From positions 1-44,969 of IMG/VR virus record IMGVR_UViG_3300012001_000017: a DNA stretch of 44,969 nucleotides. The stretch is one strand, 5' to 3'. Below, piece after piece: positions 3,724 through 41,484 of this stretch (the first letter of the stretch is position 1; each line of letters opens with the position of its first letter). Below the pieces are notes generated by a model, which saw only the letters and a list, made by a program, of their open reading frames with translations, was not told the DNA's origin and made no database searches. Both the position numbers and the translations under genes were made by a program. Source of the stretch: a virus.

Positions 3724-4184
3724 TCATCCGTGTGAAAGATGGCCACCCTGTAGGTCGCCTTGTTGCTAGTGTCTGCACTACGCAGAAGGCACTTCTGATC
3801 CGAGGTCCCGACATCCGATAGCTCGTAGTAGACGGTCCCAATTCCCGAGTCCAAACCGATGGGCTGATACTTGCCGGTGCCACCGATCTGAGCAAAGCCA
3901 GAGACACCAATGATCTTGCCAGTGACCTTGAGATAAACCTTGTCGTACTGGTGGACGTTGTCCCGCACCGCCATGATGCCCTTGAAGGTTGTCACCTTGA
4001 AGACGCCGCCGCCGCCGATGTCCATCGTCGCGCACTTAATGCCACCGTCGGTTTCAAGCCCACTGCTCACGAGCTGATCGGCAAAGCGCTGAATGGCCTC
4101 GAGGGCTTCCCGGACTGGGCGGTCCGTGATGCCCTCTAAGCTGAGCTGAAGATCGTTCGCTCCCTTATGCGTTGCCACCATCAC
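3720..4184 (-). CDS. Hypothetical late-operon protein (154 aa)
   Basis: Helical N-terminal third (RPVREALEAIQRFADQLVSS) followed by a beta-rich Gly/Ile/Thr domain. Likely a small virion or tail-tip protein because it lies between the tail hub and adaptor genes and overlaps both. The start is either GTG 4184 or ATG 4181, inside the end of the tail-hub gene. No family recognised. Confidence 0.7.
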   Translation of the reverse strand: MMVATHKGANDLQLSLEGITDRPVREALEAIQRFADQLVSSGLETDGGIKCATMDIGGGGVFKVTTFKGIMAVRDNVHQYDKVYLKVTGKIIGVSGFAQIGGTGKYQPIGLDSGIGTVYYELSDVGTSDQKCLLRSADTSNKATYRVAIFHTDE

Positions 4185-6402
4185 CCCCGCTCGCTTCGTC
4201 TGTAATGTCTTCGCCGCGCTGCGTGAACTTCATGTCGATCGCATGCAGCTCAAAGCCCTCGTCCTTAGGATAGCCTCTGATCTGCCACTTCGTCCCAACG
4301 ACGCTGCTCGGCGCGTCCGCCAGGGTCAGCGTCGTCGAGGCGTGGTTCACGATCGTGTAGCCGGCGTTATAGCCGTCGGCCTCGAAAGCGATGAGATGTC
4401 CGCGTAAATCGAACGTGCCATCATGCGGCCAGACGCCGCTCGCGATGAGCACCGTCTTCGCGCCGTTGTTCACCGTCGCCAATGCGAAGTTGTCAGAGGC
4501 GAAGAGGATGACCAGGCCCTTACGGAACTGAAGCTGGCGGTAGAGGAAGCGCAAACCGCCGGAGCGCATCCAGCGCATAACACGATGCATGCCGAAATCG
4601 GTGATCTTACGATCCCGTATGTCCTTCAGTTGCTTCCCGACTCTCTGATCGTCGTTGAAGGTCCAACTGTCGACCGACAGAGCACCAGAGACATTCTTCG
4701 CGATCACGAAGACCTTCGTCATCCACTTGAAGATCCGGGGCGAGCCAAAGCTCCAGGCACATGTGACGTAGTCCCATATGATGCCCATCCTGTTCCAGGT
4801 CGCAGCACTGTTCGTCGTGTCCACCACGAGATCGTTGTTCTTCGTATCGTCGAACATCATCACGTAGCCGCGCTGATCGCCGAAGAGGATCCGGTCGTTC
4901 TTCGCGTCGTAATGCATCGCCGTCATCAGGAGGTTTGCCCCTGCGCTTGCTGTGGTAAAGACTCCGTCCTCAGCGGTCGAGAAGTTGAGGTCCAGTACAA
5001 AGGCGCAATTGTTCTTTCCCGTGTTGTCAGGATTCAACGTCGCAGATTCCGTGGACCACCAAAGCCGGTTGCCATGAGTCTCAAGACACCCGACCATGCG
5101 ATCCTTGACGAGACCCTTGTACGTTACATTGAGGTGCTCTGAGAGGGAGATGACCTTGAAGCCATCGGTGAAGCACCAGCCTGATTCGCTGGGGAAGAAG
5201 ATGCCTTCCGTCGTCCGGATGATCGCATCGGCCGCGATGCAACCCATCACCGCGGAGATCTGCTTGGCCTTCATGCTACCGCCGCCGGTCGCGTCAAAGC
5301 GGCCTTCAATGCGGTAGCACTGCCGGCGAGCAAATACGATAGGATAGCTGCCGACATGCGACAGCCCAGTGATCTTGAACGGAATGTCTACGAAGTTGCC
5401 AGACGGCACTCCGTTGGGATTCAACGGGTGACTCTGCCAAAGTCGCGTGTTCCAGAAGTTCGGATCACCAGCCGCAATACCGGCAGCATAGAATCCGTAG
5501 CCGTCGATAATAGCCGAGTAGTAACAGAGCGGCGGTGGATCCCAGAACGACACGCCACCTGCGAAGTACGCCGCAGCGCCGAGCGCGGCATCAGCAGGCG
5601 ACGTACCCCAGACAAGGGATGATCCCATGCCCTTTACCGTCGTGTAGAGCGGAACCGTCTCGGCGTCCTTGGTTCGCCATTCGTACACGTCCATCAAGCC
5701 GGTAGTCGTATCGTAGTTATCAAGCGCCGTGTTCGTCCACGTGATGCCCGCTCGGGTGATAGGAAGCGAGCCGCCGTAGAACTCAAACATCGGCGTACCG
5801 AAATCCTGAAAGGTAACAGCGTTGCCATCTACCTTCGCCGAGTAGGATCGCTCCAGCCCATAAAAGATGATGTAGTGAGCAGACCCGCTATTGTCGATAT
5901 TGATACCGCTAGCGACGCAGTCGGCAGCTCTAGGTAGACCAGCTTGAACGAGACGCCAAGCATTGTTGCCGCCATCCCGATAGATCTTGATCGTCCGGCA
6001 CCCGGCGATCTTCGTCGCGCCGGGATTCGGTGTCATGAAGAGATGACCTCGCCATTCCGAGATCGATAGCCGCGCGCCTAGCTCACTATCTGGAAAGGCC
6101 GTCGTGGTTCCGTTCTCCCCGAACAGCGTCGTCCAGTTTGAATCGCCATCTTCCAGGTAGTAGAGGTTGACGCCGCTCTTTACGAAGCAGGTGCTATCGA
6201 AGAAATAGATCGAATCGATCTTCTGATTCCCGCTTGGAAGCTGCGGAGCGCCATCATTGAAGACCTTCGTGCCTGGCCGTTGCACGAGCTTCTTGAAACG
6301 GTTCAGAAGAAGGTTGTCCAGCTTCTTGGCGGCGGACGGCGCACCGTCGATGTAGTTATCCGTGATCCCTTTGGTCCACTCGTCGAGAAGCTGGTTTGGC
6401 AT
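4165..6402 (-). CDS. Tail hub/stabilisation protein (P22 gp10-like), 745 aa
   Basis: Starts MPNQLLDEWTKGITDNYIDG at 6402, one base after the preceding stop; the open frame continues further upstream, but that part overlaps the lipoprotein gene and lacks a convincing start. A short helical N-terminus is followed by about 700 residues of repeating beta strands rich in Gly, Asp, Trp and Tyr, as expected for a beta-propeller-like tail-hub protein. Length, composition and position before the adaptor gene fit podovirus tail stabilisation proteins (for example P22 gp10). Function is inferred from architecture and gene order. Confidence 0.7.
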   Translation of the reverse strand: MPNQLLDEWTKGITDNYIDGAPSAAKKLDNLLLNRFKKLVQRPGTKVFNDGAPQLPSGNQKIDSIYFFDSTCFVKSGVNLYYLEDGDSNWTTLFGENGTTTAFPDSELGARLSISEWRGHLFMTPNPGATKIAGCRTIKIYRDGGNNAWRLVQAGLPRAADCVASGINIDNSGSAHYIIFYGLERSYSAKVDGNAVTFQDFGTPMFEFYGGSLPITRAGITWTNTALDNYDTTTGLMDVYEWRTKDAETVPLYTTVKGMGSSLVWGTSPADAALGAAAYFAGGVSFWDPPPLCYYSAIIDGYGFYAAGIAAGDPNFWNTRLWQSHPLNPNGVPSGNFVDIPFKITGLSHVGSYPIVFARRQCYRIEGRFDATGGGSMKAKQISAVMGCIAADAIIRTTEGIFFPSESGWCFTDGFKVISLSEHLNVTYKGLVKDRMVGCLETHGNRLWWSTESATLNPDNTGKNNCAFVLDLNFSTAEDGVFTTASAGANLLMTAMHYDAKNDRILFGDQRGYVMMFDDTKNNDLVVDTTNSAATWNRMGIIWDYVTCAWSFGSPRIFKWMTKVFVIAKNVSGALSVDSWTFNDDQRVGKQLKDIRDRKITDFGMHRVMRWMRSGGLRFLYRQLQFRKGLVILFASDNFALATVNNGAKTVLIASGVWPHDGTFDLRGHLIAFEADGYNAGYTIVNHASTTLTLADAPSSVVGTKWQIRGYPKDEGFELHAIDMKFTQRGEDITDEASGGDGGNA

Positions 6403-6403
6403 G

Positions 6404-7339
6404 TTAGACCCCGTACCCTTCTTTGATCGCGAGCAGCAGATCAAGAGCAGGGGTTTTCCACCCTTCTTCGCCTTTGCCATCCGGCATCTCACGGCTGCCG
6501 CAGCGCTGATGGCGGAACTCCCATTCGTTCTCTTTGAAGGATTCCACATACGAAGAAAGCGGCTTGCGGCCGCAGTATGCATCGATGGTCGGAATGTCGA
6601 AGTCTGTGGAGGCTTGGCAGATCGCTGTCTGCGCCGGCGCACTCAGCTCATGCCCCAGAAGCCTCGCCGTCAAGATCGTCAAGTAGCCGAGATTCGCAAA
6701 GTAGCAGCTCGCGGTAGGCTTCGCTTTCAGATCTACGTATAGCGCACCGGTTGCTACATCAAGCGCTGCCAGGCTATCGGCAGGAGGCGGATCGCGCAGG
6801 CCAAGACGAGATGCGATAAGAGCACGAACAGTAGCAAAGCCAGGAGCAGCCACAGATCCTGTCCCGACGTAAAGTTCGCCGTGATGCGCTTCCGTGTAGA
6901 GCGAATGGAGTTGGAACGGCTGCTTCCATTTCGCAGCCCCGTCGCAACGAGTGATACTGTCTGCCACGGAAAGATAGAATCCCACGGCACCGTCCCAGGT
7001 GATCTCACGTCCGCCCTTGTACTCTGCTGGAAGTGGCTCATAGCGCGTCAGGCCTCCCTTGTTGTTCGTGACCATGGTGATGAGTGCATCATCCATCTTG
7101 CCGACGTCAACACAAGACCGCGTAACGTAGTGCGCAACGCCGCCCCAGAGGATGCCTTCGCCCTGGTGCTGCTGAGCACCGTTGGCATCCTTCGAGAAGA
7201 TGAAGCCACCCTGTTCAAAATCCTGAAGTCGCATCTCGTATGAGTCGCGGGTGGACATGACGTCTTCGGGGATGGGGGAAACCTTTGCAGAGGAATGCGA
7301 GCATGCGACCAGGCTGATAATGAGGAGCAGGTACTTCAT
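6404..7339 (-). CDS. Phage-encoded lipoprotein of unknown activity (311 aa)
   Basis: The N-terminus MKYLLLIISLVACSHSS is a classic lipoprotein signal: charged start, hydrophobic core, lipobox LVAC with Cys13. The mature part is unrecognised. Blocks such as GEGILWGGVAHYVTRSC and REITWDGAVGFYLSVADS, with Trp, Asp and aromatic residues in helices, resemble the style of alpha/alpha-toroid carbohydrate-active enzymes, but I cannot assign a family. It lies in the fibre cluster, overlapping the S74 fibre gene (ATGA) with AAGGATG upstream, and is followed after one base by the tail hub. A lipoprotein cannot easily be a virion tail part; an envelope-located role such as receptor modification or superinfection exclusion is inference. 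Confidence 0.8.
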   Translation of the reverse strand: MKYLLLIISLVACSHSSAKVSPIPEDVMSTRDSYEMRLQDFEQGGFIFSKDANGAQQHQGEGILWGGVAHYVTRSCVDVGKMDDALITMVTNNKGGLTRYEPLPAEYKGGREITWDGAVGFYLSVADSITRCDGAAKWKQPFQLHSLYTEAHHGELYVGTGSVAAPGFATVRALIASRLGLRDPPPADSLAALDVATGALYVDLKAKPTASCYFANLGYLTILTARLLGHELSAPAQTAICQASTDFDIPTIDAYCGRKPLSSYVESFKENEWEFRHQRCGSREMPDGKGEEGWKTPALDLLLAIKEGYGV

Positions 7340-8364
7340 TTGTCATCCTTCGATTTCGAGGTTTTCAAAAGGTCTTCAAGAGCCGCAACGCGCGCTTCCA
7401 GAGCCAGCTCCTTTGCGATCTCGTCTTTCAGAGCCGCCGCAATCAGAGGCGTCATCTTTCCGTAGTCGATAGCCATCGTCGGCATTTTACTATCCGGCTC
7501 GCCACTCACAGCGCCGGGATAGACGAGCTTTAATTCCTGAGCGATGAAGCCGTAATCCTGTTTGCCAGTCTCCTTCCAAACAAAGCTACGAGGCCTCACC
7601 TTGGCGAGGAGGTCCAGAGCGCCGGTGAAATCCTTGATGTCGTTCTTCAAGCGAGCGTCAGACGTAGTGTTGTAGAGAACCGAAGTGCCGCTGGCAGAGA
7701 TCGATCCACGACGCGACGCAGCGCCAGCCGAGTCGTAGAACTCGATGAAGATCGGGCCGGTCGCAGCGCCTTCGCCGACAAGTCCAATACCCATACCGAT
7801 GTTCGTGCTGGATGTTCCAGCGCCGGTGTTACGCACATCGAATATCTGGTTGCTTGAATTGTCTGTGCTCGAAACGGCCATACCGCCATTCACGACATGG
7901 CTCACCGTTGCACCAGATGGCCCAAGGAACCATCGTCCGGTGTTATCGACGTTACCGACAGCGCGTAAGCCGCCAGCATTTGGTTCTGTCGCAAAGATCA
8001 GGTTGCCGCCATCTCCGCCACCACCGCTCTGCGAGTACTGCGTGACGATGGAAGCCGCGACCACGCCAAGGTTCGTTTGAAAGTCGATCGCAGACGCCGT
8101 GCTGGCGACGAGACCAGCATCGGTGTTCTTGAGGATCAGCGTAGGGTTCCGATTCGTGACACCACTAAGAACCGAAGCAGATGTCCGATTCACCGTTACC
8201 GCCGCCGCCGTACCATCCGCACAAAGAAGATCCGTCATCACACCAGCAACAGACGTCTGCATACACTGCTTGCCACCGCTCGACCGATTCCGCGGCGAGC
8301 GCAGATCCGTAGCAAACGCAGGCATCGCGAAACAACAGAGCGCGAGTAACAGAAGCCTCTTCAT
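7336..8364 (-). CDS. Secreted fibre protein with C-terminal S74 intramolecular chaperone/peptidase (342 aa)
   Basis: The C-terminal 110 residues are a peptidase S74 (endosialidase-type chaperone) domain: SDARLK at 235-240 gives the Ser235/Lys240 pair, spaced as in the self-cleaving dyad of the family. It is followed by RPRSFVWKETGKQDYGFIAQ, MAIDYGKMTPLIAAALK and a closing heptad coil. The middle is beta-rich fibre-shaft sequence. The N-terminus MKRLLLLALCCFAMPAFA is a Sec signal peptide with an AFA cleavage site, which is abnormal for a virion fibre. I chose ATG 8364 over GTG 8370 because AAGGAG then has five-base spacing. In known S74 proteins the domain trimerises the fibre and then cuts itself off. 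Neighbours on both sides also carry signal peptides. Confidence 0.9.
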   Translation of the reverse strand: MKRLLLLALCCFAMPAFATDLRSPRNRSSGGKQCMQTSVAGVMTDLLCADGTAAAVTVNRTSASVLSGVTNRNPTLILKNTDAGLVASTASAIDFQTNLGVVAASIVTQYSQSGGGGDGGNLIFATEPNAGGLRAVGNVDNTGRWFLGPSGATVSHVVNGGMAVSSTDNSSNQIFDVRNTGAGTSSTNIGMGIGLVGEGAATGPIFIEFYDSAGAASRRGSISASGTSVLYNTTSDARLKNDIKDFTGALDLLAKVRPRSFVWKETGKQDYGFIAQELKLVYPGAVSGEPDSKMPTMAIDYGKMTPLIAAALKDEIAKELALEARVAALEDLLKTSKSKDDK

Positions 8365-8373
8365 GCTCACTCC

Positions 8374-8877
8374 TTAGTTCGTCGTGTAGGTAATAGGGTT
8401 CGCGTACCATCCGCAGTTCGAACTGTTCGTAAAGGCAGCGCCACCTTGCGCCTGAATCTGAATCTGTCCCGTGTTCGTGATGTAGACAACTCCAACGACC
8501 TGCGTATTGGCGTTCTGGACCATGGCTGGCGAATAGAAGCTGACCGCTGGACGAAGAGACGCAGGGACATCGGTAGCATTGCTTATAAAGACGTTGGCCG
8601 CTGTAGCGGCCACACCAGCGCTCTGAGGAAAATAGAGCGTCACCGTCTTTCCATTACGAACATACGGAACGATGGTCGACGGCGATACTGTCCGCGCGCC
8701 AGTGAACGCCGCAGTGAACGTTCCAAAGTCCGTATCAGGGATAAACTTGAAACCAAGGGAGCGTCCAAGCGATTGGAACAATCCAGCAGCCGAGTTCCAA
8801 TACAACCCATTCTGCGCATCATCAGCGCGAGCCGGTAGAGCACATAGCAAAGCGAGGGAAAGAATCAAACGTTTCAC
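8374..8877 (-). CDS. Secreted fibre-tip/receptor-binding-like protein (167 aa)
   Basis: The start is GTG 8877: AAAGGAG sits six bases upstream and overlaps the previous stop. From this start the protein begins with a clear Sec signal, KRLILSLALLCALPARA, cleaved before DDAQNG. The mature domain (PASLRPAVSFYSPAM, QVVGVVYITNTGQIQI, ending WYANPITYTTN) looks like the small beta-sandwich found at the C-terminal tips of many tail fibres, here as a free-standing exported protein. Longer starts at 8961 run through the preceding gene and would bury the signal, so they are less likely. Confidence 0.75.
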   Translation of the reverse strand: MKRLILSLALLCALPARADDAQNGLYWNSAAGLFQSLGRSLGFKFIPDTDFGTFTAAFTGARTVSPSTIVPYVRNGKTVTLYFPQSAGVAATAANVFISNATDVPASLRPAVSFYSPAMVQNANTQVVGVVYITNTGQIQIQAQGGAAFTNSSNCGWYANPITYTTN

Positions 8878-8888
8878 GATGAACTCCT

Positions 8889-10838
8889 TTAGCGAATACG
8901 AACGGCCAAGACGTCCGCAAGGTTTGCTCCAGTGCCAGCCGTCGTATATGTGCTCTGACACGTCGCATAGTAGGTTGCCGCGGTCGAAGGCGTCACATGC
9001 CTAACGACCGAGCCGCTACGCTGATCCGACCCAGCGCTAGCCGAATCATGCGTCGACCAGATACTGAAGATCTTCGCGCCAGCGTCGATGCTACTAGACG
9101 AGGACGAAATCGCGCACGTTGTGCTCGTCCAGCCGCTCGCCGTGCCGAGAGCATTTAGAAACCCGACATAGATCATCCAATCGCCAGCAGACGGAAGCGC
9201 GATCGTGGCCACGGCATGTGTAGAAGCCGAGAAAGCCGTAGACGTACCAGTAACGACAAACTCCTGAGCAACGTTGCCACTGGTCGCAAGAGCACCTGAT
9301 GTATCGCCAACGACACCGGCCGAGAACGTTGGCGCAGCCGCAAAGGTTTTCGCTCCCGCAAAGCTCTGCGTCGTCGTATTAACCAGACCACTTGCGATCG
9401 TCGACGCGCTCGGAACCGCGATCGAGGTCTGCGCCACCGCAGCCTTCACGCGAAGACGATGCGTTGCGTCAACAGTAAGACCTGTCCAATCACAGTAGAG
9501 GTTCGTGTTATCCCAATCGCAGTAATCGCCGGACTCCAAACTCGTCGGCTTCCCAGCGGTTCCCGACACCTCATACTGAAGCGTGACAACCTCAGGAATG
9601 ATCCCGAGGCCGTGAGCGATCGTCGTGCCAGGCGCCGCCGTGAGCTGTCCCGAATCGTAGAGACCGATCGGGACAACCGTTCCGCTGGTCGCCATATTCT
9701 GCGCACCGAAGTCGACAAAGGATCCTGCAGCCAGATCGTTGAAGTCGTACCAAAGCTTCGTAGTATCCTTCGAGACGAGCCAGCTATCAGAAAGCTGATT
9801 CGCAATCGATGAATCTGCCCGATACCAGTTACCACTCCAAAGCTGCTTCTCAGGAGCCACCAGAAGATTGTGCGACAAACGAGCAGCATAGAGCCGACGA
9901 ACATCATCGTCCGTCAGCGCTGTGCCACCGTTCACAAAAAACATCTCCTCAGCACGTCCGACAAAGTAGCCAGCATTACCATCCTTCGCTACACCGAAGG
10001 CAGGCGATGTAACGGCACGCACCGTCGCCAATGTCTGACTAGCGACAAGACGTCCATCGACATATGCCTTGAGCTTCGTATTGGTCGCGTCATACAGCTC
10101 GACGAAATGATGCCAACCACCACCAGCAGCAATCGTAACAATGAGGTTTCCCTCACTACCCGATGCAGTCGATGCCGCCTGAAACGCAATGATATTGCCA
10201 ACAGGCTGTATATTGAATCCGCGATCGGCGTTGCTCTGCCACTGCCCCATCAATGTAGAACTTGGCACCGATGACCAGGCCGCAGCATAGAACCAGCCGC
10301 CCATGGCAAAGCTAACGCCCGGCCCCGGATTGAAGAAGGTCGAGCTCGACGTCAACGACTTCGTGGATCCCGTGAAGTCAAACGCGCCAGAGACGCCTGC
10401 GATACCTGTAGCGGTAGTAGCAGTCGTCCCGACGTTGGTAAGGTTCTTTGCATTCGTTGTGTTGCCATCCGTGACACTGGCATTCCAAAACGAATATTGA
10501 GACGTGGTAAGTCCAGAGGGAAAATCTGAAGCATCAATCGTATGACCAGCCTGATTGTTACCAACCGAGCCGACAGCGACCAAAGCTGTCTTGGCCTGTG
10601 CATATGCCAACGGCGAGAAGACACTAGATCCGATAGACGTCCAATTCGTTCCATCGTAGATCTGGGCCTTCTTTTGCGTCAGGTCGTAATAGATACGGCC
10701 TTCGATGCCCGTGGGCGCCGATGACTGCTTCTCAAGAAGAGCCTTCTCAAGCTGGCCGTTGATGGTGACGCAAAGAGCGATATCGCTACACGAAAGCGTC
10801 AGGAAGATCAGCGTTAGAAACCTACCGATATGATTCAT
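8889..10838 (-). CDS. Exported fibre protein with LamG-like domain (649 aa)
   Basis: The N-terminus MNHIGRFLTLIFLTLSCSDIALC is a signal-peptide-like segment; cleavage near residue 23 is likely, and a lipobox at Cys17 is poor. Residues about 40-70 (GRIYYDLTQKKAQIYDGTNW) are a common fibre repeat, residues about 150-325 form a laminin-G/concanavalin-like domain (GVSFAMGGWFYAAAW, WHHFVELYDATN, LKAYVDGRLVASQTL), and a beta-rich C-terminus ends LAVRIR. LamG-type domains bind glycans or surfaces. The start overlaps the stop of the 805-residue fibre (TGATG). The fibre call is firm; export is inferred from the N-terminus. Confidence 0.8.
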   Translation of the reverse strand: MNHIGRFLTLIFLTLSCSDIALCVTINGQLEKALLEKQSSAPTGIEGRIYYDLTQKKAQIYDGTNWTSIGSSVFSPLAYAQAKTALVAVGSVGNNQAGHTIDASDFPSGLTTSQYSFWNASVTDGNTTNAKNLTNVGTTATTATGIAGVSGAFDFTGSTKSLTSSSTFFNPGPGVSFAMGGWFYAAAWSSVPSSTLMGQWQSNADRGFNIQPVGNIIAFQAASTASGSEGNLIVTIAAGGGWHHFVELYDATNTKLKAYVDGRLVASQTLATVRAVTSPAFGVAKDGNAGYFVGRAEEMFFVNGGTALTDDDVRRLYAARLSHNLLVAPEKQLWSGNWYRADSSIANQLSDSWLVSKDTTKLWYDFNDLAAGSFVDFGAQNMATSGTVVPIGLYDSGQLTAAPGTTIAHGLGIIPEVVTLQYEVSGTAGKPTSLESGDYCDWDNTNLYCDWTGLTVDATHRLRVKAAVAQTSIAVPSASTIASGLVNTTTQSFAGAKTFAAAPTFSAGVVGDTSGALATSGNVAQEFVVTGTSTAFSASTHAVATIALPSAGDWMIYVGFLNALGTASGWTSTTCAISSSSSSIDAGAKIFSIWSTHDSASAGSDQRSGSVVRHVTPSTAATYYATCQSTYTTAGTGANLADVLAVRIR

Positions 10839-13255
10839 CAGCCGATCCCCACCAATGTGTAGGTCCCGGCGGCGAGCGCGATGCCCACCGTCACAGTGAC
10901 CGTCGTTTGCGTCATCGTGATATCCGCGAGGATCTGCTTATAGGCGTTCGTGTTGTCCTTCAGCGCCCAAACGCAGTTGCGCGCGTCAGAGACCTGACCG
11001 TTGGCCGGCGTCACCGTCCCGTCCACCGTGTAGGTCACCGCGGTCGTCGCGCCGCTGACCCAGCCGGCCGCATCCTGATTCACGTACCGTTCGGCAGAGA
11101 CCTTTCGCCAGGTGCCCCCGATATCGACCATGAGGTCGTTCGTCGTCGTGTCCCAGTACTGCCTACCCGGAAAGCTTGCGGACGCTGCGGGCCGTCCTAC
11201 GGTCGTGTAGTTGGCAAAGCGCGCGCCAAAGAGCTGCCCAGCGATGTAGGCGTCCTTGACCTGATGGCTGCTGTCGCCGATGTCATAGGTCGCATCGACG
11301 AGTGGCTTAAAGTTGCTACCCCACCAGAGCGTTCCCTTAGTGGCGTGGCTCGTCGAGCTCAACGTCAGGTCCTCGGAGGCCAGGGCGCTGCCGTAGAGCG
11401 CCTGGCCGCCGCTGCGACCCGCCAGCATGGCGAACTGCGTGTGGCCGGCGTCGCCAGTCGTGAGGCCGCTCAGCGTGCTGTGCGTGATCTCGGTGTCCGG
11501 CGCGCTGGCGACCCACTTAGTCCCGTCCCAAAAGATCGAGTATCCGGTACCGACGCCCGTGTTGATCGCCCTGAGACTCATCAGCGTGGCGATAGGCACC
11601 GTATTGGTACCATCCCCGATCGCTGTGCCCAGGTAGAGCGTGCCCCAGCGAGTTGCCGTGGCTCCCAGGTCCTTCGTGTTATCCGCGGTCGCCAGGAAGC
11701 TGGCCGACGACTTCACCAGGCCAGCACCGTTCGGCGCGAACGTCAGGTTCCCGTCCGTGTTGCTTGTCGAGATCGTGTTCGTGAGAAAGCCCAGGTTGTC
11801 TATGGCGGCGCCGCCGCTGACATGGAGCTTGCTCGTCGGATCCGAGACGTTGATCCCGAGGTTCCCGTCGTACCGGATCCTCATTCGCTCGGCTGGAGTG
11901 CCCCCGTTTGCCGTCGCGAAGATGAGATCCGCGAACTGCGTCGTGCCGTCGCCGCGGTACCGGCTCTGGATCCCGGAAAGCCATGCGTAGGCCCCGCCGA
12001 TCATCCCCCACTGGTCGATGAAGGCCACGTCGTCAGAGGACGCCAGGTTAGCTCCTGCGGCCCGTGCGCGGTAGAACTGGAAGGTCGGTGCATTGGCTGC
12101 CGTGGAGTTTACCCCTTCCAACCGCGCCTTCAGCGATCCGGCCTTGTAGACGTGGAAATCGGTCTGCGGATCCGCGCGGCCGATGCCAACCCGGCTCTGA
12201 GCGGTGTCCCAGGCCATCAGCGTCGCGCTGTAGAGGCCGAAGCCGGCCGCGTCTACCGTGAGGCGGGAAACTCCCGCTGTCGCCAGGCCCCATTGATTTA
12301 GTCCCGGTCGATACAATCCGGTGGTGGTGTCGGAGAAGCGCAGTGAAGGCGCCACCGACGATCCCGGAATGATCTCGAGGCCCGTCGCTTTGAAGGTTGC
12401 GACGTTGGCGCCTGTGACCCCCACACCAACCTGAGAAGTGGCTGGTTGGTACAGTCCTGTAGTGAGGTCACCGGTAAACGTAAAGCCAGGGGTTCCCACG
12501 GCAAAGGTACTTGCGATGTGGCTGGCAGCGGAAACGGCACCGGTAGTCGTGAGCGCATTGTCTCCGAACGAGATCGCATGGGAGGAGTCGGCGATGCTTC
12601 CTGATCCGAGGGTGAGGGTTCCAGCGGAGAGAAGGGTTGTCCAGACTTGGTGCCATCGGATGGCAGTTGTACCGAAGTCGTAAGTGTCGTGAACCGTAGG
12701 ACGAGCATTATCAGCAAACTGGACGTAACCAGTAGCAGCCCCAACGCCATCGCCGCTGTTCGCATGGAAGGTGAGATTCTTTCCGGATGTTTTTCCACCA
12801 TAGACGTGCTGACCAGCATTAACCCCAGTAAGAGGACTACCACTGCCATCAAGATCATCGTAGCCCCACTTGGCGACATACATGTCCAGAGTCTTTTGGT
12901 AGAAGCCGCTGATCACGCCGTCGCTCGACCAATCATAGTCGGCAACCTTATGCCAGGACGCTACCGCCTCACCTTCGCGCTGTTCCCATCGGTACGCCGC
13001 CGCGCGGCCGTCCCCATCATCTAAGACAACACGGTAATCATTCAGCGCGTTACCGCCCGCAGGCAGCGCTGCAACGTTAGCCACCGAGGGCTTCTCGGTG
13101 GGGTAGAGCACAGCGAAGAGATAGTCGAGCGCCGCGCCCATAGACGTGCCGCCTGGCGCCGCCGGGTTCGCATAGCCGATCTCAGACGCCGGGTGAACGA
13201 GCGGATGCTGCGCCTTCGAAATGATCTTTACTCGACTATGCTCTTCAATCGCCAT
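10838..13255 (-). CDS. Tail fibre protein (805 aa)
   Basis: A long Gly/Ser/Thr/Ala-rich fibre without a signal peptide, so the likely virion-attached fibre. The N-terminal 130 residues (to about DMYVAKWGYDD) are distinct and probably the attachment domain. The shaft contains repeated units: TTGLYQP at about 265 and TTGLYRP at about 311, each followed by a Val/Gly/Thr strand pair, and a larger duplicated block (GQHVYGGKTSGKNLTF near 148 and GQALYGSALASEDLTL later, each followed by a TYD[FI]G strand). The C-terminus (VSDARNCVWALKDNTN, TMTQTTVTVTVGI) is a small beta domain. The gene downstream starts within its stop codon. Codons are more GC-rich than in the following fibre genes, hinting at separate origins. 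Confidence 0.85.
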   Translation of the reverse strand: MAIEEHSRVKIISKAQHPLVHPASEIGYANPAAPGGTSMGAALDYLFAVLYPTEKPSVANVAALPAGGNALNDYRVVLDDGDGRAAAYRWEQREGEAVASWHKVADYDWSSDGVISGFYQKTLDMYVAKWGYDDLDGSGSPLTGVNAGQHVYGGKTSGKNLTFHANSGDGVGAATGYVQFADNARPTVHDTYDFGTTAIRWHQVWTTLLSAGTLTLGSGSIADSSHAISFGDNALTTTGAVSAASHIASTFAVGTPGFTFTGDLTTGLYQPATSQVGVGVTGANVATFKATGLEIIPGSSVAPSLRFSDTTTGLYRPGLNQWGLATAGVSRLTVDAAGFGLYSATLMAWDTAQSRVGIGRADPQTDFHVYKAGSLKARLEGVNSTAANAPTFQFYRARAAGANLASSDDVAFIDQWGMIGGAYAWLSGIQSRYRGDGTTQFADLIFATANGGTPAERMRIRYDGNLGINVSDPTSKLHVSGGAAIDNLGFLTNTISTSNTDGNLTFAPNGAGLVKSSASFLATADNTKDLGATATRWGTLYLGTAIGDGTNTVPIATLMSLRAINTGVGTGYSIFWDGTKWVASAPDTEITHSTLSGLTTGDAGHTQFAMLAGRSGGQALYGSALASEDLTLSSTSHATKGTLWWGSNFKPLVDATYDIGDSSHQVKDAYIAGQLFGARFANYTTVGRPAASASFPGRQYWDTTTNDLMVDIGGTWRKVSAERYVNQDAAGWVSGATTAVTYTVDGTVTPANGQVSDARNCVWALKDNTNAYKQILADITMTQTTVTVTVGIALAAGTYTLVGIG

Positions 13256-14208: not shown

Positions 14209-15480
14209 TTATGGATAGCTGATGCCGTAGATGACACCGCAGCGGCACGGGGCGTTCAGAACGAGTTCGCCAAAGAAACGGATGTCAGAAATGTACTGGT
14301 AACCAGTCGTGGTGCGCTTGGTGTAGTACTGCTTCCCGTCCGGATCGATATGCTTCTCGAAGAACTGGTTGGAGTGCAGCTTGATCGCGCTCCAGTCCAT
14401 GACGTACATGATGTCGTCATCCATCTCGCGAACGCCAACCATCTTCAGGTTGCCTTCGACACCAAAGACCGTGATCTCCGTGTAGCCGAATGCGCTGACT
14501 TTGGTGTCCACGTGGCGGAAGCCACCGGAACCGGCTTCGAGAGCCTTCATCACCGAGCCCAAGTGCTTGAAGGACATGACGACATCAGTCGCCGCGCCTT
14601 TGCCCAGGGTCTGGGTGTTGGTCCACGCGTCGAAGATCACTTCAAGCACGTTGACGGCCGTCATGCTGCTACCGTCGTAGGCGATCGATTGCAGGTAGGG
14701 ATAGGCCAGCTTCGAAACGCCGAAGAGGTTGGCACTGCCGCCGTTGGCCGCTGGCAGAATCTGGCTGCGCAGCGAGGTGAAGACGTTCGCCGAAGTCTGC
14801 GCGCCGTCAAGATAGACCTTGGCGTTGGCAGCGATGGTGATCGTCGCACCAGAGAAGTCGACAGGAGTCGAGCCGCCCTTAGTGGTAACCAGCGTCAACG
14901 ACTTCGCGTTGATGTTGATCGTCTTCACCCAGCCGGTGATGGCCGAGGTGTCGTCATCCTGGACTTGCACTTTCATGCCGAGCTTGAAGCGCTCGATCCG
15001 GTCAACGACGATCACGCCAGACGCCGACACGGTGTCAGCGGTGAGCTTGGCGAAGTGCGCGCCGCTCAGCATGGTGATCGAGCAAGCAACCTTCATCGAT
15101 TCGATAAAACGTTTGATCTGGCCAAGGATGTTCGTCAAGAAGCTTTGCTTGTTGACGTAGCCCTTCGCACGCGCGCTTTCGGGCACGTGCTCGATAAGGT
15201 CCTTGGCGTTCCAAATCATGGAACCCCAAACTTCTTTGTAGCCAGCCACGTTTCCGCGAACGTATTGGAATTCCGTGATGTCCGCTTCAGCAGCGAGGCT
15301 GCCGAAGGTCACCGTCGAAGCTTCCGCGCCTTCGAATGGAACGACGAGATTGCCGCCCTTCCAGTTCTGATCCTTCTCGACCGTGTTGATAAACCAGTTC
15401 TGAAGTTTCAGTTCTTCGTAGAGCAACTCATAGGTGAGGTACTCGTTCAACATGCTGGAGAATGAGGCCAAGGTAACCAT
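14209..15480 (-). CDS. Major capsid protein, HK97-fold type (423 aa)
   Basis: Features fitting an HK97-type capsid: a helical N-terminal arm (MLNEYLTYELLYEELKLQNWF), an E-loop-like segment (VVPFEGAEASTVTFGSL), a long spine helix (NILGQIKRFIESMKVACSITML), and a C-terminal part with FGYTEITVFGVEGNLKMVGV. An inserted beta domain at about 165-225 (KVQVQDDDTSAITGWVKTIN) resembles the extra domains of some podovirus capsids. Position directly after a scaffold-like gene and before a strong terminator supports the call. AAGGA sits upstream of ATG 15480. There is no N-terminal prohead-protease domain, consistent with a separate scaffold. Confidence 0.88.
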   Translation of the reverse strand: MVTLASFSSMLNEYLTYELLYEELKLQNWFINTVEKDQNWKGGNLVVPFEGAEASTVTFGSLAAEADITEFQYVRGNVAGYKEVWGSMIWNAKDLIEHVPESARAKGYVNKQSFLTNILGQIKRFIESMKVACSITMLSGAHFAKLTADTVSASGVIVVDRIERFKLGMKVQVQDDDTSAITGWVKTININAKSLTLVTTKGGSTPVDFSGATITIAANAKVYLDGAQTSANVFTSLRSQILPAANGGSANLFGVSKLAYPYLQSIAYDGSSMTAVNVLEVIFDAWTNTQTLGKGAATDVVMSFKHLGSVMKALEAGSGGFRHVDTKVSAFGYTEITVFGVEGNLKMVGVREMDDDIMYVMDWSAIKLHSNQFFEKHIDPDGKQYYTKRTTTGYQYISDIRFFGELVLNAPCRCGVIYGISYP

Positions 15481-15513: not shown

Positions 15514-16692
15514 CTACATGGACTTGAGCTCTGCATCGATCCTGGCTTTCATATCGCCGAGGTTCTTCATGGGAGCTTTCGTCGGGCTCGAAGACGTACC
15601 GCGTCCTAGGTTGGGCAACGTCTTGGGCCGCTCATGTGGCTTCACCGGAATTGGTGCAGCCGCTGCCGCGGGCACTATTGTTGGAGCTGGAGCGGGAGCG
15701 GGCGCTGCTGGTATGACAGCGCTGTATTTCGCATGGACGCGACGAACCACCTCGTCCGGTGGAACATAGCCCTCACCCTTGTTGAAGGCTTCGCTGCCAG
15801 TCTGGGCAAACTCGCGCTCGAAAGCGCCAGGTCCCATCTTGGCATCCATCGCTTCCCTGAATTGCTGGACTTCGGGAACAGCCATGACAAGCCGAGTCGA
15901 AGCCGCATGTGAAACGGCGAATGCATCCGCGCCTTGTCTGGCTTGGCTTGCTTCGGCCTCTTCGCGTTGAAACGACTGGTCAGCCTCGACCCGCTGGTTG
16001 GCGAGCTGCGTGGCAAACGCGGGATCGTCTTTCGCTTTCACAACGGCAAACGCGTACTTAATTACCGCGTCTTCTGAGACACCCATCTCCTTGAAGAAAC
16101 CATCAAGGTTCTTCTCGCGGAGCTTCACCAGGCGCTCGACCTTTTGCACGTGATCTTGGACGTAACGCTTGTTCTCGTCACGTTCCCGCACAACGGTTTC
16201 ATGCTTTGGCTTCAGTGCCTCAAATGCTTCGCTCTTTTGAAGCGTGGCCCGTACTTGCTCTTCAGCCTCCTTGGAGGTTGAGGCTTTCTGCGCCCATTCA
16301 GGAAAGGTCTTTTCCTGATCGTAGACCTTGTATCCGAAGTTTGGCTTGTAGGCCTCTTCAGTGCCCGCAGGCTTCTCAGCCTTGTCGTCAGCGGCCTTGG
16401 CGTCTGGCGCGGTTTCGCCTTCTGCTAGGGCTTCCTTAGTCTTGTCCTCAGGCAAGGGCTCGGCCGCCGGGTCTGGCAGTTCGATCTCTTTGCCATCAGC
16501 GGCGGTTTCCGCTGGGAGCACGACTTCAGTTTTCTCGGCAGCCTTCTTTTCGAAATCTGACAGCTTCATGGACTGGCCATCAAGCTCCCCGCCTTCGAAC
16601 TTCAGGTCTCCCGAATCACTGCTTTCGATCTCTTGGTCGCGATCCGTTTTGATCACGTCTTCGAGTTCTTCGAGCTTGGTCCTGTCCGCCAT
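15514..16692 (-). CDS. Capsid scaffolding protein (392 aa)
   Basis: Highly charged and helical, with an acidic N-terminal half rich in Glu, Asp, Ala and Lys, a central coiled-coil-like region (VRERDENKRYVQDHVQKVER), a Pro/Ala-rich linker (PAAPAPAPAPTIVP) and a basic C-terminal helix (KNLGDMKARIDAELKSM) as expected for capsid binding. Size, composition and place between portal and capsid fit a podovirus scaffold. I chose ATG 16692 (MADRTKLEE) because AAAAGGA lies just upstream; a start 13 codons earlier at 16731 is open but less supported. Confidence 0.85.
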   Translation of the reverse strand: MADRTKLEELEDVIKTDRDQEIESSDSGDLKFEGGELDGQSMKLSDFEKKAAEKTEVVLPAETAADGKEIELPDPAAEPLPEDKTKEALAEGETAPDAKAADDKAEKPAGTEEAYKPNFGYKVYDQEKTFPEWAQKASTSKEAEEQVRATLQKSEAFEALKPKHETVVRERDENKRYVQDHVQKVERLVKLREKNLDGFFKEMGVSEDAVIKYAFAVVKAKDDPAFATQLANQRVEADQSFQREEAEASQARQGADAFAVSHAASTRLVMAVPEVQQFREAMDAKMGPGAFEREFAQTGSEAFNKGEGYVPPDEVVRRVHAKYSAVIPAAPAPAPAPTIVPAAAAAPIPVKPHERPKTLPNLGRGTSSSPTKAPMKNLGDMKARIDAELKSM

Positions 16693-16749
16693 GTCATGTC
16701 CTTTTCTGTTGGAGCTGGTTTGCCCCGTCATGCCCTGGTTTGGGCGTTA

Positions 16750-18924
16750 TCAACTAGCCATCTGAGCCTGAGGAGGCATCCCTTGTTGGGGAGGCATTCC
16801 CTGTGGTCCAGGCGGCATTCCACCTTGCTGCTGACCGCCACCCATCATGCGACCGATGTCGCCTTGAGTGGCCTCGTCGAAGCCCTGGAGTTGCTCCTGC
16901 TGGCTTCCCTGTTTCTCAAGCGTCTGACGAAGCCAGACGATCGATTCGCTCGGCAGTCGAATGCGCCGGCTCTTGGAGGGGTCTTTAGGGTCGCCTTCGT
17001 AAAGCTCGACCGTCGCGAGGAATCCACCGGAGGGAATGAAGCCGGCCTGTGCAGCCTGAGCATCCTTCATCTCCTGCGCCATCAATTGCTCATGCTGCTG
17101 GAGCTTCATCGCCCAGTTCTGTTTCGCCTGTGGCTGAAGAAGATCGTAGTCCTTCTTCTTCTGCCGGCTGCGTATCTTGGCGATGATGTACTTGTGGTTT
17201 TCACCAGCCTGAGCCGGTACCTGCTTCCCGCGGTCGAGCGCGAGCTGGTCATTGACCCAGTTGTCGAAGTCCGCCGTGAGATCGTCAAACGCGATCTCTT
17301 TATCCATCCATGGACTCGCACGCATGACTTGGCCGAGGACCGATGGGTCGAGCTTCTGGCCAACGAATTGAAGCATGTGGTTAAAGCTGAGCTGCTTGCC
17401 CATCTTCGTTTCGAGATCTTCGCTCTGCGCTTCGACCGTGATCTGGTAGCCGAGATCTTGGGAGGCGCGGAACTCTTCGATGTTGAGGTACTCGTTCTTT
17501 CCGACAACCTGGACAAGCATCTCGTCGTGGTAGTAGGCCTTCGCGAACTTCAGAGCCAGCTTGCAAATGGCTACGAGGAATTCCTCGAACTTCTCGATGT
17601 AGATCATGAACGGCTTTTTCTGCTTCGCCGTCTTGTAGAGGATCGCGTAGGGATCGACCTGGCCGTCGTTACTCTTCGCGCTGTCCTCTTCAATCATCGA
17701 GATCTGATACATCTCGGAGATCTGGCCGGCCATGTAGCCGACGTATTGCTCACCGGTGCGGCCGGGGAAGATCTTGGGATCCGAGCCCGTGACGTTGATG
17801 GCCTTGACGCCGTGCGCCGCGCCGCCGGGCGTCATGGTCGCACCGTTGCTCAGCATGACCTTGTCATCGCCCAGGGTGATCTGGTGCTCGGCGATCTTGG
17901 AGGCCGCGCGGTTGATCTCAGCCTGAAAGGGACGAAGCTGCTTGATAAGCGAGAAGCTCCGTGCGCTGGTCGTCGCTTCGTCAAAGCCAGCGTAGACGAT
18001 CGGGAAAAGACCAAGCGGAAGCTCGCCTTCTTCCAAGACCATGCCCTTGACGCCGATCTCGTACCAGCCGTTAGGACATTCGATACACGGCCGCGTGTAC
18101 TTCTCCAGAATGAGACAGAGGCCCTCGCTATCGCGATAGGCCCCGCTCGTGCTCTCAAAGATCTTGTAGGTCTCTTCTGAGCTTTCGCAAATCGCGTTCA
18201 GCTTCTGCGGTTGGTCGGCGTAGTACTTCTTCAGCCCGCTGACCGCGACCATCTTCCGGTAGATGCACCAGCGGACTTCGTCCCAACTGCGCGCATCCGG
18301 ATCGGTAATCAGGTTGAAGCCCATGATGCGCTCGAAGACCAAGTCTCCGGTCATCACGGGCTGCTCGTCTAAAACATGCTCACCAGTCTCAGGATGGAGG
18401 TGAGGAGTTCCATCCTCGTTGTAGAGCGGATCGTAGCCAAGGAAGTGGCCCATCTTCGGATCGAAGAAAACCTTGCCGATACACTCGCCGATATCAACAA
18501 AGTCCTGACACCAGACGCGCGTCTTGGCTTTGAGCGTATGGCGCTCCACCATGTCCCGCCAGACGCTGTGATGCATCTCCGCGACTTTGACATCCGACAG
18601 CTCCGCTTCGTTCTTCGGTCCCACGCCGACGCCGGGGGCGTAGGACAGAATATTATTGCGGTAGGTCTTCGTGATCTTCTGGATGTGGTTCTTGGTAAGC
18701 CGGATCTTCTGGGTCTTGGTGATCGTCTCGATCTCACGCAGCCGCTGCGCAAACTTCGTCGAACGGTTGGCGTAGTGGTTGCCATTCACCAGGAGGATGT
18801 TGCTGCGCTGCTCGGCGAAGAGCGCCTGGTGATGCGTCTCGGCCTGCTGATAGCTGGTCCACAGATCCGACGAGGTGTCCTGGCCCGTACGCTTCTCCGC
18901 CGTCGCATGCGCTGATGGATACAT
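16750..18924 (-). CDS. Portal protein, podovirus (P22-like) type (724 aa)
   Basis: Length and layout match large podovirus portals. The N-terminal helices (RSNILLVNGNHYANRS, FAQRLREIETITKTQKIRLT) lead to the clip/wing region, DPDARSWDEVRWCIYRKM and a stem-like segment (FSLIKQLRPFQAEINRAASK). The C-terminal 60 residues are a Gln/Gly/Pro/Met-rich barrel-like tail (GGGQQQGGMPPGPQGMPP). It forms the twelve-fold ring through which DNA is packaged by the terminase encoded just upstream. GGGGAG precedes ATG 18924. Gene order terminase, portal, scaffold, capsid supports this. Confidence 0.88.
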   Translation of the reverse strand: MYPSAHATAEKRTGQDTSSDLWTSYQQAETHHQALFAEQRSNILLVNGNHYANRSTKFAQRLREIETITKTQKIRLTKNHIQKITKTYRNNILSYAPGVGVGPKNEAELSDVKVAEMHHSVWRDMVERHTLKAKTRVWCQDFVDIGECIGKVFFDPKMGHFLGYDPLYNEDGTPHLHPETGEHVLDEQPVMTGDLVFERIMGFNLITDPDARSWDEVRWCIYRKMVAVSGLKKYYADQPQKLNAICESSEETYKIFESTSGAYRDSEGLCLILEKYTRPCIECPNGWYEIGVKGMVLEEGELPLGLFPIVYAGFDEATTSARSFSLIKQLRPFQAEINRAASKIAEHQITLGDDKVMLSNGATMTPGGAAHGVKAINVTGSDPKIFPGRTGEQYVGYMAGQISEMYQISMIEEDSAKSNDGQVDPYAILYKTAKQKKPFMIYIEKFEEFLVAICKLALKFAKAYYHDEMLVQVVGKNEYLNIEEFRASQDLGYQITVEAQSEDLETKMGKQLSFNHMLQFVGQKLDPSVLGQVMRASPWMDKEIAFDDLTADFDNWVNDQLALDRGKQVPAQAGENHKYIIAKIRSRQKKKDYDLLQPQAKQNWAMKLQQHEQLMAQEMKDAQAAQAGFIPSGGFLATVELYEGDPKDPSKSRRIRLPSESIVWLRQTLEKQGSQQEQLQGFDEATQGDIGRMMGGGQQQGGMPPGPQGMPPQQGMPPQAQMAS

Positions 18925-18927
18925 CGA

Positions 18928-19398
18928 TCACTCCCCGCTTTGAAGACCCGTTTGTTCCATCTCGTCCAGACGAGCTTCATAGGCGACAGGATCGGTGATC
19001 ATCAGATTCGACATCTCATACGACTGCGCCTCCAGCCTTTCCTCGACATCCGCGTTCTCACTGGCAGCGTGTAGATCGGCGAGGCGCTTACGAGCCGCGT
19101 CGAGATCCTGAGCTGTCGGAGTGGCCGTCTGGTTTGTCGGTCGCGCCGGTTGGGATGCGGTGTCTAGATTGTCGTCAAGTCTTTTCTCAAAGATAAGGGA
19201 CAAACCCGCGTAGCTCAAAGAGGAAACACCTGCCCCGCGGCAGGCCCTAATGATTTCGCGGACTTGATCTGGAGAGAGCGTAGGACCCCCGTAGAATGCC
19301 GGCTTGCCGACTTCACTTACCAAAGACTCTGCCTTGGCACGTTCGCCCGCGCGCCGCAGCGCACTACTCGAAACTGCCTTCGTCTTCAAACGAGCCAT
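18928..19398 (-). CDS. Hypothetical protein between terminase and portal (156 aa)
   Basis: Unrecognised. Basic N-terminus (MARLKTKAVSSSALRRAGER), then a helical region and an acidic coil (DLDAARKRLADLHAASENADVEERLE). The start ATG 19398 lies inside the 3' end of TerL (35-base overlap), and the gene stops three bases before the portal start. The arrangement suggests coupled translation and a role in packaging or portal assembly, but no domain was identified. An upstream in-frame start at 19434 is possible but runs deeper into TerL. Confidence 0.7.
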   Translation of the reverse strand: MARLKTKAVSSSALRRAGERAKAESLVSEVGKPAFYGGPTLSPDQVREIIRACRGAGVSSLSYAGLSLIFEKRLDDNLDTASQPARPTNQTATPTAQDLDAARKRLADLHAASENADVEERLEAQSYEMSNLMITDPVAYEARLDEMEQTGLQSGE

Positions 19399-20953
19399 CG
19401 AATTCCCCCATGTCGTTCTGGTTTCCGTAATCAAAGACCTCGTTGGCTAGGTCGATCTCTGCCTCAAGCAGATCCACCCCCTGACGCTTACGCTTCATGC
19501 GCTCCCACGCGACTTCGCGCTCGGTGGTGCCCACGGGCTTCTCCCGGTCGCCGGCCTTCTTGACCGCGTTTAGGAGGTTCCAGGGCACCTTCGTGCAGGC
19601 GAAGCGGATCGCGTCGATGAAGTCGTCCCGAGCGCTCTGCTTGGGCGTCGATTTCTTCAGACTCTCAAATTCGATGACCGCCTTCCCCAGCTCGTCCTCC
19701 TCGCCGTAGATCTTGAGGACCCCAAGCTTGAAAAGCGTGTTGAGGAGCGTCGTCCCTGTGTCCTGTCCTTTCTCGGCCTTCTGGAAGGGGATCCCGCGGC
19801 TGACAGCGATCTGGTAGAAGTCGCGGCTCTGGTGATCGTAGAACTCGCCGACGGGCCGCATCTTGCCCTTGAGCTCAACGTACTTGTCCAGGATGTCGCC
19901 GGCCGTGGTCTCGATCCCGTCGCCGCGCCAGCCCTTGAAGATCCGACCCTCGGTAAAGTCCGGCTTCACGCCGAGGAAGGCGATCGCGCCAGGGTGACCA
20001 TTCTGGCCGCCCGAGCCAATGTCCACGCCGGAGAAGATGATCCAGCTCTTCGGCAAGGGGTGTGCCTCAACGACGTTCACCTTGCGCACGAAGCTCGGAT
20101 ACTTCCGATCCTCGTCGATGACGAAGCGGCCCCAAACGCGCCGCTGGACCTCGGACTCCGTCGAGCAGCTATCAACGACTTCCTGGATCGCCTGGTCGGT
20201 CCACATGCTCGGCGTACCGTCCATGTAGAACTTGCAATCGTAGAGGCTCACAGTCTGCTTAAAGGCCTTCGTGAACTTCTCGTGCTTCGTACCGCGTTCT
20301 TCCATGGTCAAGCGCCACAGCTCCTGCCCAAGCGTCGCGGTGAAGACCATGTGCCAGTATCCGCGTACTGAAGCCGCACTAATTCGCGCGTTCAATTCCG
20401 AGTACAAATGAACCGGCAGTTCCTCGTCGCAGAAAAGGGCGAACACCGACGCAGTCTGCAAATTGTCCACTTCCATGGAATAGGAACGGAAGTAGACGCT
20501 GATCCCAGAATTGAACTTCAGCCGATGGACTTTCTTGTTCTTGTACTCGATCTGCCACCCGTAAGTCGGATCGTCCTTGAGCGCTTCCTTCGGCAGAAAC
20601 TCTTTGACCCACTTCTCCTCGAATTCCGCGGTCGCGACATCCAAGGAGGGATAGAGGTACCAAAACTGCGTTGGCGTCCGACTCCATAGTTCCTTCCACA
20701 GGCTCTTCTCCGTTGCCCAGTGAATGCACTTACGGATCTGCGTCGAGGACTTCGAAGCCTGGTTTGCTGCAACCAAGAAGTTGTAGCGGTTACGCGACTG
20801 GAAATAATCCCAGGCCCACTGGTACCAGGGCCAGCCGTAAAGATGCGGCAGATTCTCTTCAAGGAATTGGCGGCGCTCTAAGGCACGGATCTTCTCTTCG
20901 AGAGCTTCCCGCTCCTGAAGCTGCGTCCACGCCACTGAAGGTACCTGTGCCAA
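19364..20953 (-). CDS. Terminase large subunit (TerL), 529 aa
   Basis: The packaging motor has an ATPase with Walker-A-like AANQASKS at 62-69, Walker B FALFCDEE at 171-178 and the coupling-motif region HMVFTAT at 201-207, then a C-terminal RNase-H-like nuclease with acidic residues in SGVDIGSGG (D311), FYDHQ (D373) and ARDDFIDAIRFA (D443-D447). The P-loop is unusual: the Gly before Lys is replaced by Ser (QASKS). The start appears to be TTG 20953, with AAGGGGAT upstream; there is no Met in the first 120 codons. Length is normal for TerL. Confidence 0.92.
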   Translation of the reverse strand: MAQVPSVAWTQLQEREALEEKIRALERRQFLEENLPHLYGWPWYQWAWDYFQSRNRYNFLVAANQASKSSTQIRKCIHWATEKSLWKELWSRTPTQFWYLYPSLDVATAEFEEKWVKEFLPKEALKDDPTYGWQIEYKNKKVHRLKFNSGISVYFRSYSMEVDNLQTASVFALFCDEELPVHLYSELNARISAASVRGYWHMVFTATLGQELWRLTMEERGTKHEKFTKAFKQTVSLYDCKFYMDGTPSMWTDQAIQEVVDSCSTESEVQRRVWGRFVIDEDRKYPSFVRKVNVVEAHPLPKSWIIFSGVDIGSGGQNGHPGAIAFLGVKPDFTEGRIFKGWRGDGIETTAGDILDKYVELKGKMRPVGEFYDHQSRDFYQIAVSRGIPFQKAEKGQDTGTTLLNTLFKLGVLKIYGEEDELGKAVIEFESLKKSTPKQSARDDFIDAIRFACTKVPWNLLNAVKKAGDREKPVGTTEREVAWERMKRKRQGVDLLEAEIDLANEVFDYGNQNDMGEFDGSFEDEGSFE

Positions 20954-40796: not shown

Positions 40797-41252
40797 ATGC
40801 AGAACCATCAGCGCCTGGACATCGTCGAGAAAATGATCTGGAAGATGGTAGGCCTTCCCTACCGCTGGGGCGGCGCTACATTCGATACCGGCTTTGACTG
40901 CTCCGGCGGCGTACTGGAGATCCTAATGAGCTGCGGCCTTTGGCCCAACAAGACCGATGGCCGTGCTCAGGACATCTACGATCATTTCATGCATCCCGAG
41001 CTTGGTCGTCCCTGCCCGCTGGACGAAACCGTCAGCCTCGGCACGCTCTGCTTCTACGGAGCCTCGATCAAAGCCATTACGCATATCGGTATGGCGGTGG
41101 ACGATCATATCAGCTTCGAGTTTGGCGGCGGCGATCATACGACAACGACCGCAGACGTTGCTGATAAGCAGCATGCCTTTGGTCGTGTTCGTCCGATCGA
41201 TCATCGCAAAGATCTCGTGGCTTTCGTCATCCCCCTTGAGCTTCTTCCTTGA
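40797..41252 (+). CDS. NlpC/P60-family endolysin (151 aa)
   Basis: PYRWGGATFDTGFDCSGGV gives the catalytic Cys35 in the NlpC/P60 context (YxWGG, then DCSG), and THIGMAV gives His96; a third polar residue lies downstream. The family cleaves peptide bonds in peptidoglycan. There is no signal peptide or cell-wall-binding domain, as usual for lysins of Gram-negative hosts that pass the membrane through a holin. GGAGA lies upstream. The 3' end overlaps the converging minus-strand gene by 26 bases. Confidence 0.85.
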   Translation: MQNHQRLDIVEKMIWKMVGLPYRWGGATFDTGFDCSGGVLEILMSCGLWPNKTDGRAQDIYDHFMHPELGRPCPLDETVSLGTLCFYGASIKAITHIGMAVDDHISFEFGGGDHTTTTADVADKQHAFGRVRPIDHRKDLVAFVIPLELLP

Positions 41253-41484
41253 TGTCGTCAAGCGTCTTGAACGCCTTGCGCTTGGCATCGATATGCTTCG
41301 CGATGTGCTTCATCTTGTGGGGATTGTGCATCACCTCAAGACCGTCCATCAGCGTGCGCGTCCAGTCGCTCTTCTGATACTCGGACGGGTTCTTGTCTTC
41401 CTCGCTCATCGGGGCAGACTTGAGCCCGATCTCGCCTGCCGTATGCTTCGCACTCGCCACAGCAAGACTCTTCATCTTCTTCAT
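41227..41484 (-). CDS. Last late-operon gene, small basic protein (85 aa)
   Basis: Begins MKKMKSLAVASAKHTAGEIG and is rich in Lys, Ala, Asp and His, mainly helical (DGLEVMHNPHKMKHIAKHID, KRKAFKTLDDIKEEAQGG). The start overlaps the stop of the giant internal protein (ATGA), which marks it as the end of the late operon. It could be a small internal virion protein or scaffold-like partner. No family recognised. Confidence 0.65.
   Translation of the reverse strand: MKKMKSLAVASAKHTAGEIGLKSAPMSEEDKNPSEYQKSDWTRTLMDGLEVMHNPHKMKHIAKHIDAKRKAFKTLDDIKEEAQGG

Follow-up and report, generated by a model that had tools for sequence, protein, structure and literature searches.

Four genes with predicted export signals in the fibre region of a podovirus-like phage

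Results

The window, i.e. the whole stretch of DNA analysed here, is a single virus record of IMG/VR (IMGVR_UViG_3300012001_000017) of 44,969 bases. On its minus strand, genes for TerL, the portal, a scaffold-like protein, the capsid and an 805-aa fibre, presumed to be a virion fibre, are followed in the order of transcription by those for proteins of 649, 167, 342 and 311 aa, a nozzle-like protein and an SU10-type adaptor (Table 1). The genes for the 649-, 167-, 342- and 311-aa proteins form one tight run: the start of the 649-aa gene overlaps the stop of the 805-aa gene, and the stop of the 342-aa gene overlaps the start of the 311-aa gene by 4 bp (ATGA). Further support for the called starts comes from ribosome sites ahead of the GTG start of the 167-aa gene (AAAGGAG) and ahead of the 342-aa (TAAGGAG) and 311-aa (GAAGGA) genes, those of the 167- and 342-aa genes being strong. 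The third-position GC of the block is 0.57-0.64, compared to 0.70-0.80 for most structural genes, which suggests acquisition of the block; that of the scaffold-like gene is also low (0.62). Because the endolysin candidate (NlpC/P60) lies elsewhere in the window, the block was ruled out as a lysis cassette. No near-identical phages were found, and a peptide-pattern search of viral contigs revealed no close relatives of single window proteins. The relatives referred to below are 16 viral loci found by TerL search and 54 found by capsid search; there are relatives whose lysis genes sit between the fibres and the nozzle, unlike the endolysin candidate of the window.

Table 1. Positions of the features discussed in the window and in two related phages
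Feature	Record	Positions	Strand	Remarks
TerL	window	19364-20953	-	
Portal	window	16750-18924	-	
Scaffold-like protein	window	15514-16731	-	
Major capsid protein candidate	window	14209-15480	-	query for finding relatives and host
805-aa QHP-type fibre	window	10838-13255	-	without signal peptide; N-terminus conserved among relatives
649-aa fibre, predicted exported	window	8889-10838	-	signal peptide, GQLE-type N-terminal domain, lectin-like (ConA/LamG-type) domain, C-terminal tip
Signal peptide of 649-aa protein	window	10770-10838	-	MNHIGRFLTLIFLTLSCSDIALC, then VT; weak alone, backed by alignment with homologues starting at the cleavage point
GQLE-type fibre N-terminal domain of 649-aa protein	window	10620-10769	-	VTINGQLEKALLEK...GRIYYDL...YDGTNW
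167-aa fibre-tip-like protein, predicted exported	window	8374-8877	-	GTG start; signal peptide 8824-8877
342-aa fibre, predicted exported	window	7336-8364	-	ATG start; signal peptide 8311-8364; C-terminal S74 chaperone domain 7507-7662
311-aa lipoprotein (predicted)	window	6404-7339	-	lipobox LVAC (7304-7339); predicted (alpha/alpha)6 glycosidase-like toroid
Nozzle-like tail protein	window	4165-6402	-	immediately downstream of the block
NlpC/P60 endolysin candidate	window	40797-41252	+	far from the fibre block
GQLE fibre, predicted exported	L012	8612-9604		also with Phage Tail Collar domain
GQLE fibre, predicted exported	L016	10584-12176		also with S74 domain

Phage tail fibres normally stay in the cytoplasm for assembly, and against this norm exported phage fibres are unusual. 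A sequence-only reading of the window had proposed N-terminal export signals for all four proteins of the block and none for the 805-aa fibre just upstream. Employing a hand-made scorer that looks for a basic n-region, a hydrophobic core, and the -3/-1 rule or a lipobox, we found the signals where that reading had placed them: the 342-, 167- and 311-aa proteins ranked first to third of the 166 ORFs in the window, the 649-aa protein carried a weaker, plausible signal (about 19th of 166), and the 805-aa fibre had none. Whole-protein shuffles reached the protein's own score in 0/1000 cases for the 167-aa protein, 0/1000 for the 342-aa protein, 1/1000 for the 311-aa protein and 19/1000 for the 649-aa protein. 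As a control in the relatives, portal, capsid, scaffold, TerL, the two fibre families and the nozzle gave no positives (0/319) and TerS gave one (1/47), i.e. 1/366 for all these families together. Cleavage is predicted between MKRLILSLALLCALPARA and DD in the 167-aa protein, between MKRLLLLALCCFAMPAFA and TD in the 342-aa protein and, at the lipobox LVAC, between MKYLLLIISLVA and CS in the 311-aa protein. Judged from these signals, the proteins of the block are very probably exported; signal peptidase I is predicted to cut the three fibre-type proteins, which would then fold outside the cytoplasm, and the 311-aa protein is predicted to be lipidated and held on a membrane. The weakest part of the case is the signal of the 649-aa protein taken alone, for which export rests partly on homology.

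In the fibre slot of the relatives, a QHP fibre (the 805-aa type) is often followed by a GQLE-type fibre, both without signal; the N-terminus of the latter reads like MKVYGQLExAQLE. Among about 60 distinct GQLE N-termini, three have a signal peptide directly ahead of the domain (the 649-aa protein of the window and one fibre each in L012 and L016), placed exactly at the usual start of the fibre domain, and the others begin at their own Met. Fibre-slot proteins with signals also occur in L006, L018, L019, L020, L047, L059, L172, L173 and L180, with a weaker one in L220. Phages with this trait do not form one clade on the capsid tree, which forces at least 4 changes. As read from these proteins, export signals in the fibre slot recur among the relatives and have several origins. 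The slot of L012 holds the exported GQLE fibre only. The complete records of L018 (47 kb) and L059 (44.7 kb) yielded neither unexported fibre family (QHP, GQLE), although other, unrecognised fibres or an enlarged nozzle could serve there instead. The mature exported proteins contain 7.2 Cys per 1000 residues and the unexported fibres 2.3 (Mann-Whitney p = 1.7e-4), a comparison of related rows between groups that differ in families and phages, and hence supporting evidence only; the higher Cys content fits the oxidising compartment expected for exported fibres.

Homology to tailed-phage fibres at the same place in relatives was present for the 649- and 342-aa proteins; the 167-aa protein showed no match. 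The first reading had called the 649-aa protein LamG-like. Residues ~146-317 gave a weak sequence match to a lectin-like fold, and only to that extent did the description stand; there was no Pfam hit. Just downstream of the capsid gene, L018, L019, L047, L059, L063 and L072 carry a capsid-adjacent family of ~160-200 aa that includes both exported and unexported members.

The S74 domain noted earlier in the 342-aa fibre was recovered as PF13884 (2.9e-14) with SDxxxK intact. This protein is matched best by an unexported phage fibre of L187, whose C-terminus is 40% identical over 181 aa to the C-terminal half of the window protein. It shares the S74 domain and the place among tail genes with tailed-phage S74 fibres such as the 6f45 long tail fibre distal subunit and those of Pelagibacter phage Bylgja and Phi NF-1, but no signal peptide is present in these three.

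Secreted S74 fibres of Bdellovibrio, mentioned in the sequence-only reading, are indeed described: they are the mosaic adhesive trimer (MAT) fibres, for which prey binding is documented (PMC10769870). Like the window set, they combine signal peptides, fibre-type proteins and a Bdellovibrionota setting with an S74 chaperone domain bearing SDxxxK (PMC10769870), which in the window is found only in the 342-aa protein; a signal peptide is found in the three window proteins of the signal peptidase I type, weak by itself in the 649-aa one. MAT fibres, however, are chromosomal and longer, with a conserved ~130-aa beta-rich domain following the signal peptide (PMC10769870), whereas the window proteins are encoded within the structural operon of a phage and have domains in common with phage fibres that are not exported. 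In BLAST comparisons with 35 S74 proteins of Bdellovibrionota, the 342-aa protein matched essentially the S74 region, the 649- and 167-aa proteins gave no matches, and the conserved MAT domain was not detected in the window proteins. Because they lack this N-terminal domain and the match is essentially to S74, we rejected membership of the window set in the MAT family.

The S74 domain is present in 198 of 369 Bdellovibrionota genomes, in up to 17 copies each. Among the 35 proteins, 14 were signal-bearing by the hand-made scorer, a few of these signals looking like those of pilins, and further ones looked signal-bearing by eye. In seven Bdellovibrionota loci (L137, L139, L141, L142, L147, L148 and L155), S74 proteins have an N-terminus like a type IV pilin signal (G|FxxIEV), not a Sec signal, which suggests pilin-like S74 fibres.

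When Bdellovibrionota and other phages were searched, homologues of the 311-aa protein turned up in both: those at 30-32% identity are exported proteins of two Bdellovibrionota genomes, and those at 30-36% are encoded in seven other phage contigs (L253-L259). A lipobox-like cysteine is present in each of the six phage homologues that are complete, and their genes either adjoin fibre or tail genes or follow shortly downstream of them. D116, E274, E284, D287 and D300 are invariant across 7 phage proteins of the family. Based on these alignments, the 311-aa protein belongs to a conserved phage family of predicted lipoproteins. Against the ~290-310-aa lipoproteins in the same slot of the relatives, HMM scores stayed at the level of shuffles; a profile comparison, with the two chromosomal homologues added, gave 87% probability. 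Directly beside the 311-aa homologue, L255 (1665-2576) and L258 (6981-7865) encode phage trypsin-like proteases with signal peptides (TAAHC, GDSGG).

A first AF2 model of the 311-aa protein, made from an alignment with the syntenic lipoproteins, was discarded (pLDDT 37.5); with the homologues in the alignment, pLDDT was 81.6 and pTM 0.84. By VIA alignment, the best matches of this model were (alpha/alpha)6 glycosidases (Z 14.3, ~10% identity), and the top rows, at Z 12-14, were mostly toroid glycosidases, high Z being common among helical models. The Foldseek E-value was weak (0.027), a viral structure library gave one weak match only, and the protein has no Pfam family. It thus shares with (alpha/alpha)6-toroid glycosidases the predicted fold over residues ~21-311, differing from them at ~10% identity and without a Pfam family, i.e. 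as a fold match only. According to the model the protein is glycosidase-like in fold, and an enzyme role is putative.

Scanning ~85,000 bacterial species by capsid alignment, we found two relatives: one is a prophage in a 212-kb contig of a Bdellovibrionales MAG, in which chromosomal genes, e.g. SecA-like and recombinase-like ones as read from the sequences, lie beside the phage genes; the other is a 29.7-kb contig filed under Acidobacteria. In the phylum of the Bdellovibrionales MAG, 4 of 369 genomes contain a capsid relative, two of the 4 being distant. The host of the window phage is probably a Bdellovibrionota (Bdellovibrio-type predatory) bacterium, and the prophage gives the Bdellovibrio link of the earlier reading independent evidence. 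Exchange of genes with such a host, also raised there, is plausible in view of the 311-aa homologues in two Bdellovibrionota genomes and the lower third-position GC of the block.

Discussion

The sequences analysed support the export signals, the order of the operon, the homology with unexported fibres, the recurrence in relatives and the predicted fold of the 311-aa protein. The reading that we tentatively favour is that this podovirus-like phage makes a Sec-exported envelope set for receptor masking or removal of receptor glycan. The block would act on the envelope of the infected cell itself: free exported fibres would attach to the same surface glycan as the virions do, and the (alpha/alpha)6 protein, anchored by its lipid, would trim or block that glycan. 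Neither other phages nor the phage's own progeny would then be captured when they meet infected cells or debris.

Masking is favoured because a lipoprotein gene adjoining receptor-binding genes is characteristic of exclusion proteins of the T5 Llp kind. In T5 and its relatives the lipoprotein that brings about exclusion is encoded beside the receptor-binding gene, and free purified T5 pb5 blocks T5 infection (PMC9586334). The 311-aa protein shares with Llp and Cor-type proteins a phage lipoprotein gene in such a place, its neighbour being a fibre gene whose product may bind the receptor; Llp and Cor are small (PMC9586334), whereas the 311-aa protein is larger, with a predicted glycosidase-like toroid fold. 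In other phages, genes of its family adjoin or closely follow fibre or tail genes, which also counts for masking. Several observations count against it. The genes are part of the structural operon, with tail genes as neighbours, and so are probably expressed late, whereas early expression is usual for exclusion proteins. Behind the signal peptide the fibre domain remains intact, L018 and L059 lack a recognised unexported fibre, and L012 has only an exported GQLE fibre in the slot, all of which suits a virion role. For the exported and unexported members of the capsid-adjacent family, masking gives no explanation.

The main rival to masking, rather unlikely in our judgement, is that the exported fibres belong to the virion: they would fold and acquire disulfides in the periplasm and be added to the tails once lysis opens the inner membrane. 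Both readings can be true. The periplasmic route would account for the intact fibre domain beginning exactly at the cleavage site, the Collar (L012) and S74 (L016) domains on exported fibres, the L018 and L059 records without an unexported fibre of either family, the mixed capsid-adjacent family and the enrichment in Cys. On the other hand, the window retains the unexported 805-aa fibre, the longer nozzle proteins of L018 and L059 could carry receptor binding, and the lipoprotein is left unexplained; in the literature searched, with subscription papers largely outside it, no paper describes exported virion fibres and no tailed phage is reported to assemble in this way. A little less likely still is the general statement that tailed phages of Bdellovibrionota build part of their fibres outside the cytoplasm, by Sec export, oxidation in the periplasm and addition to the virions at lysis. 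Exported fibres that keep the domain of unexported homologues would mean either that the phage has turned its own binding proteins into a set for receptor masking and trimming, or that the assembly of tailed phages can include a periplasmic step.

It is quite improbable that the proteins are shown on the predator surface as extra, MAT-like adhesins that change or assist the way in which the infected or lysogenic host attaches to prey. S74 proteins are widespread in Bdellovibrionota (198/369 genomes), many of those read having signal peptides, MAT fibres bind prey (PMC10769870), and one relative of the phage is a prophage; yet the window proteins lack the MAT N-terminal domain, their genes lie within the structural operon, and no integrase was recognised among the window proteins scanned. 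Least probable is that the hydrophobic N-termini are membrane or virion anchors or miscalled starts: the 649-aa signal is weak by itself, but the -3/-1 sites match the consensus, a lipobox is present and its cysteine is retained in phage homologues, ribosome sites precede these starts, Cys is enriched and the chromosomal homologues of the 311-aa protein are exported. The exported fibre family also connects phages with the set of exported fibres that predatory bacteria possess.

Elsewhere in the window, a 1152-aa ORF (41481-44939, minus strand) matches half of a staphylococcal nuclease domain with its N-terminal part. Among the relatives, L004 (178-2559) encodes a TerL of 793 aa with a ~270-aa insert, a possible intein, and an HNH-like ORF overlaps it in another frame.
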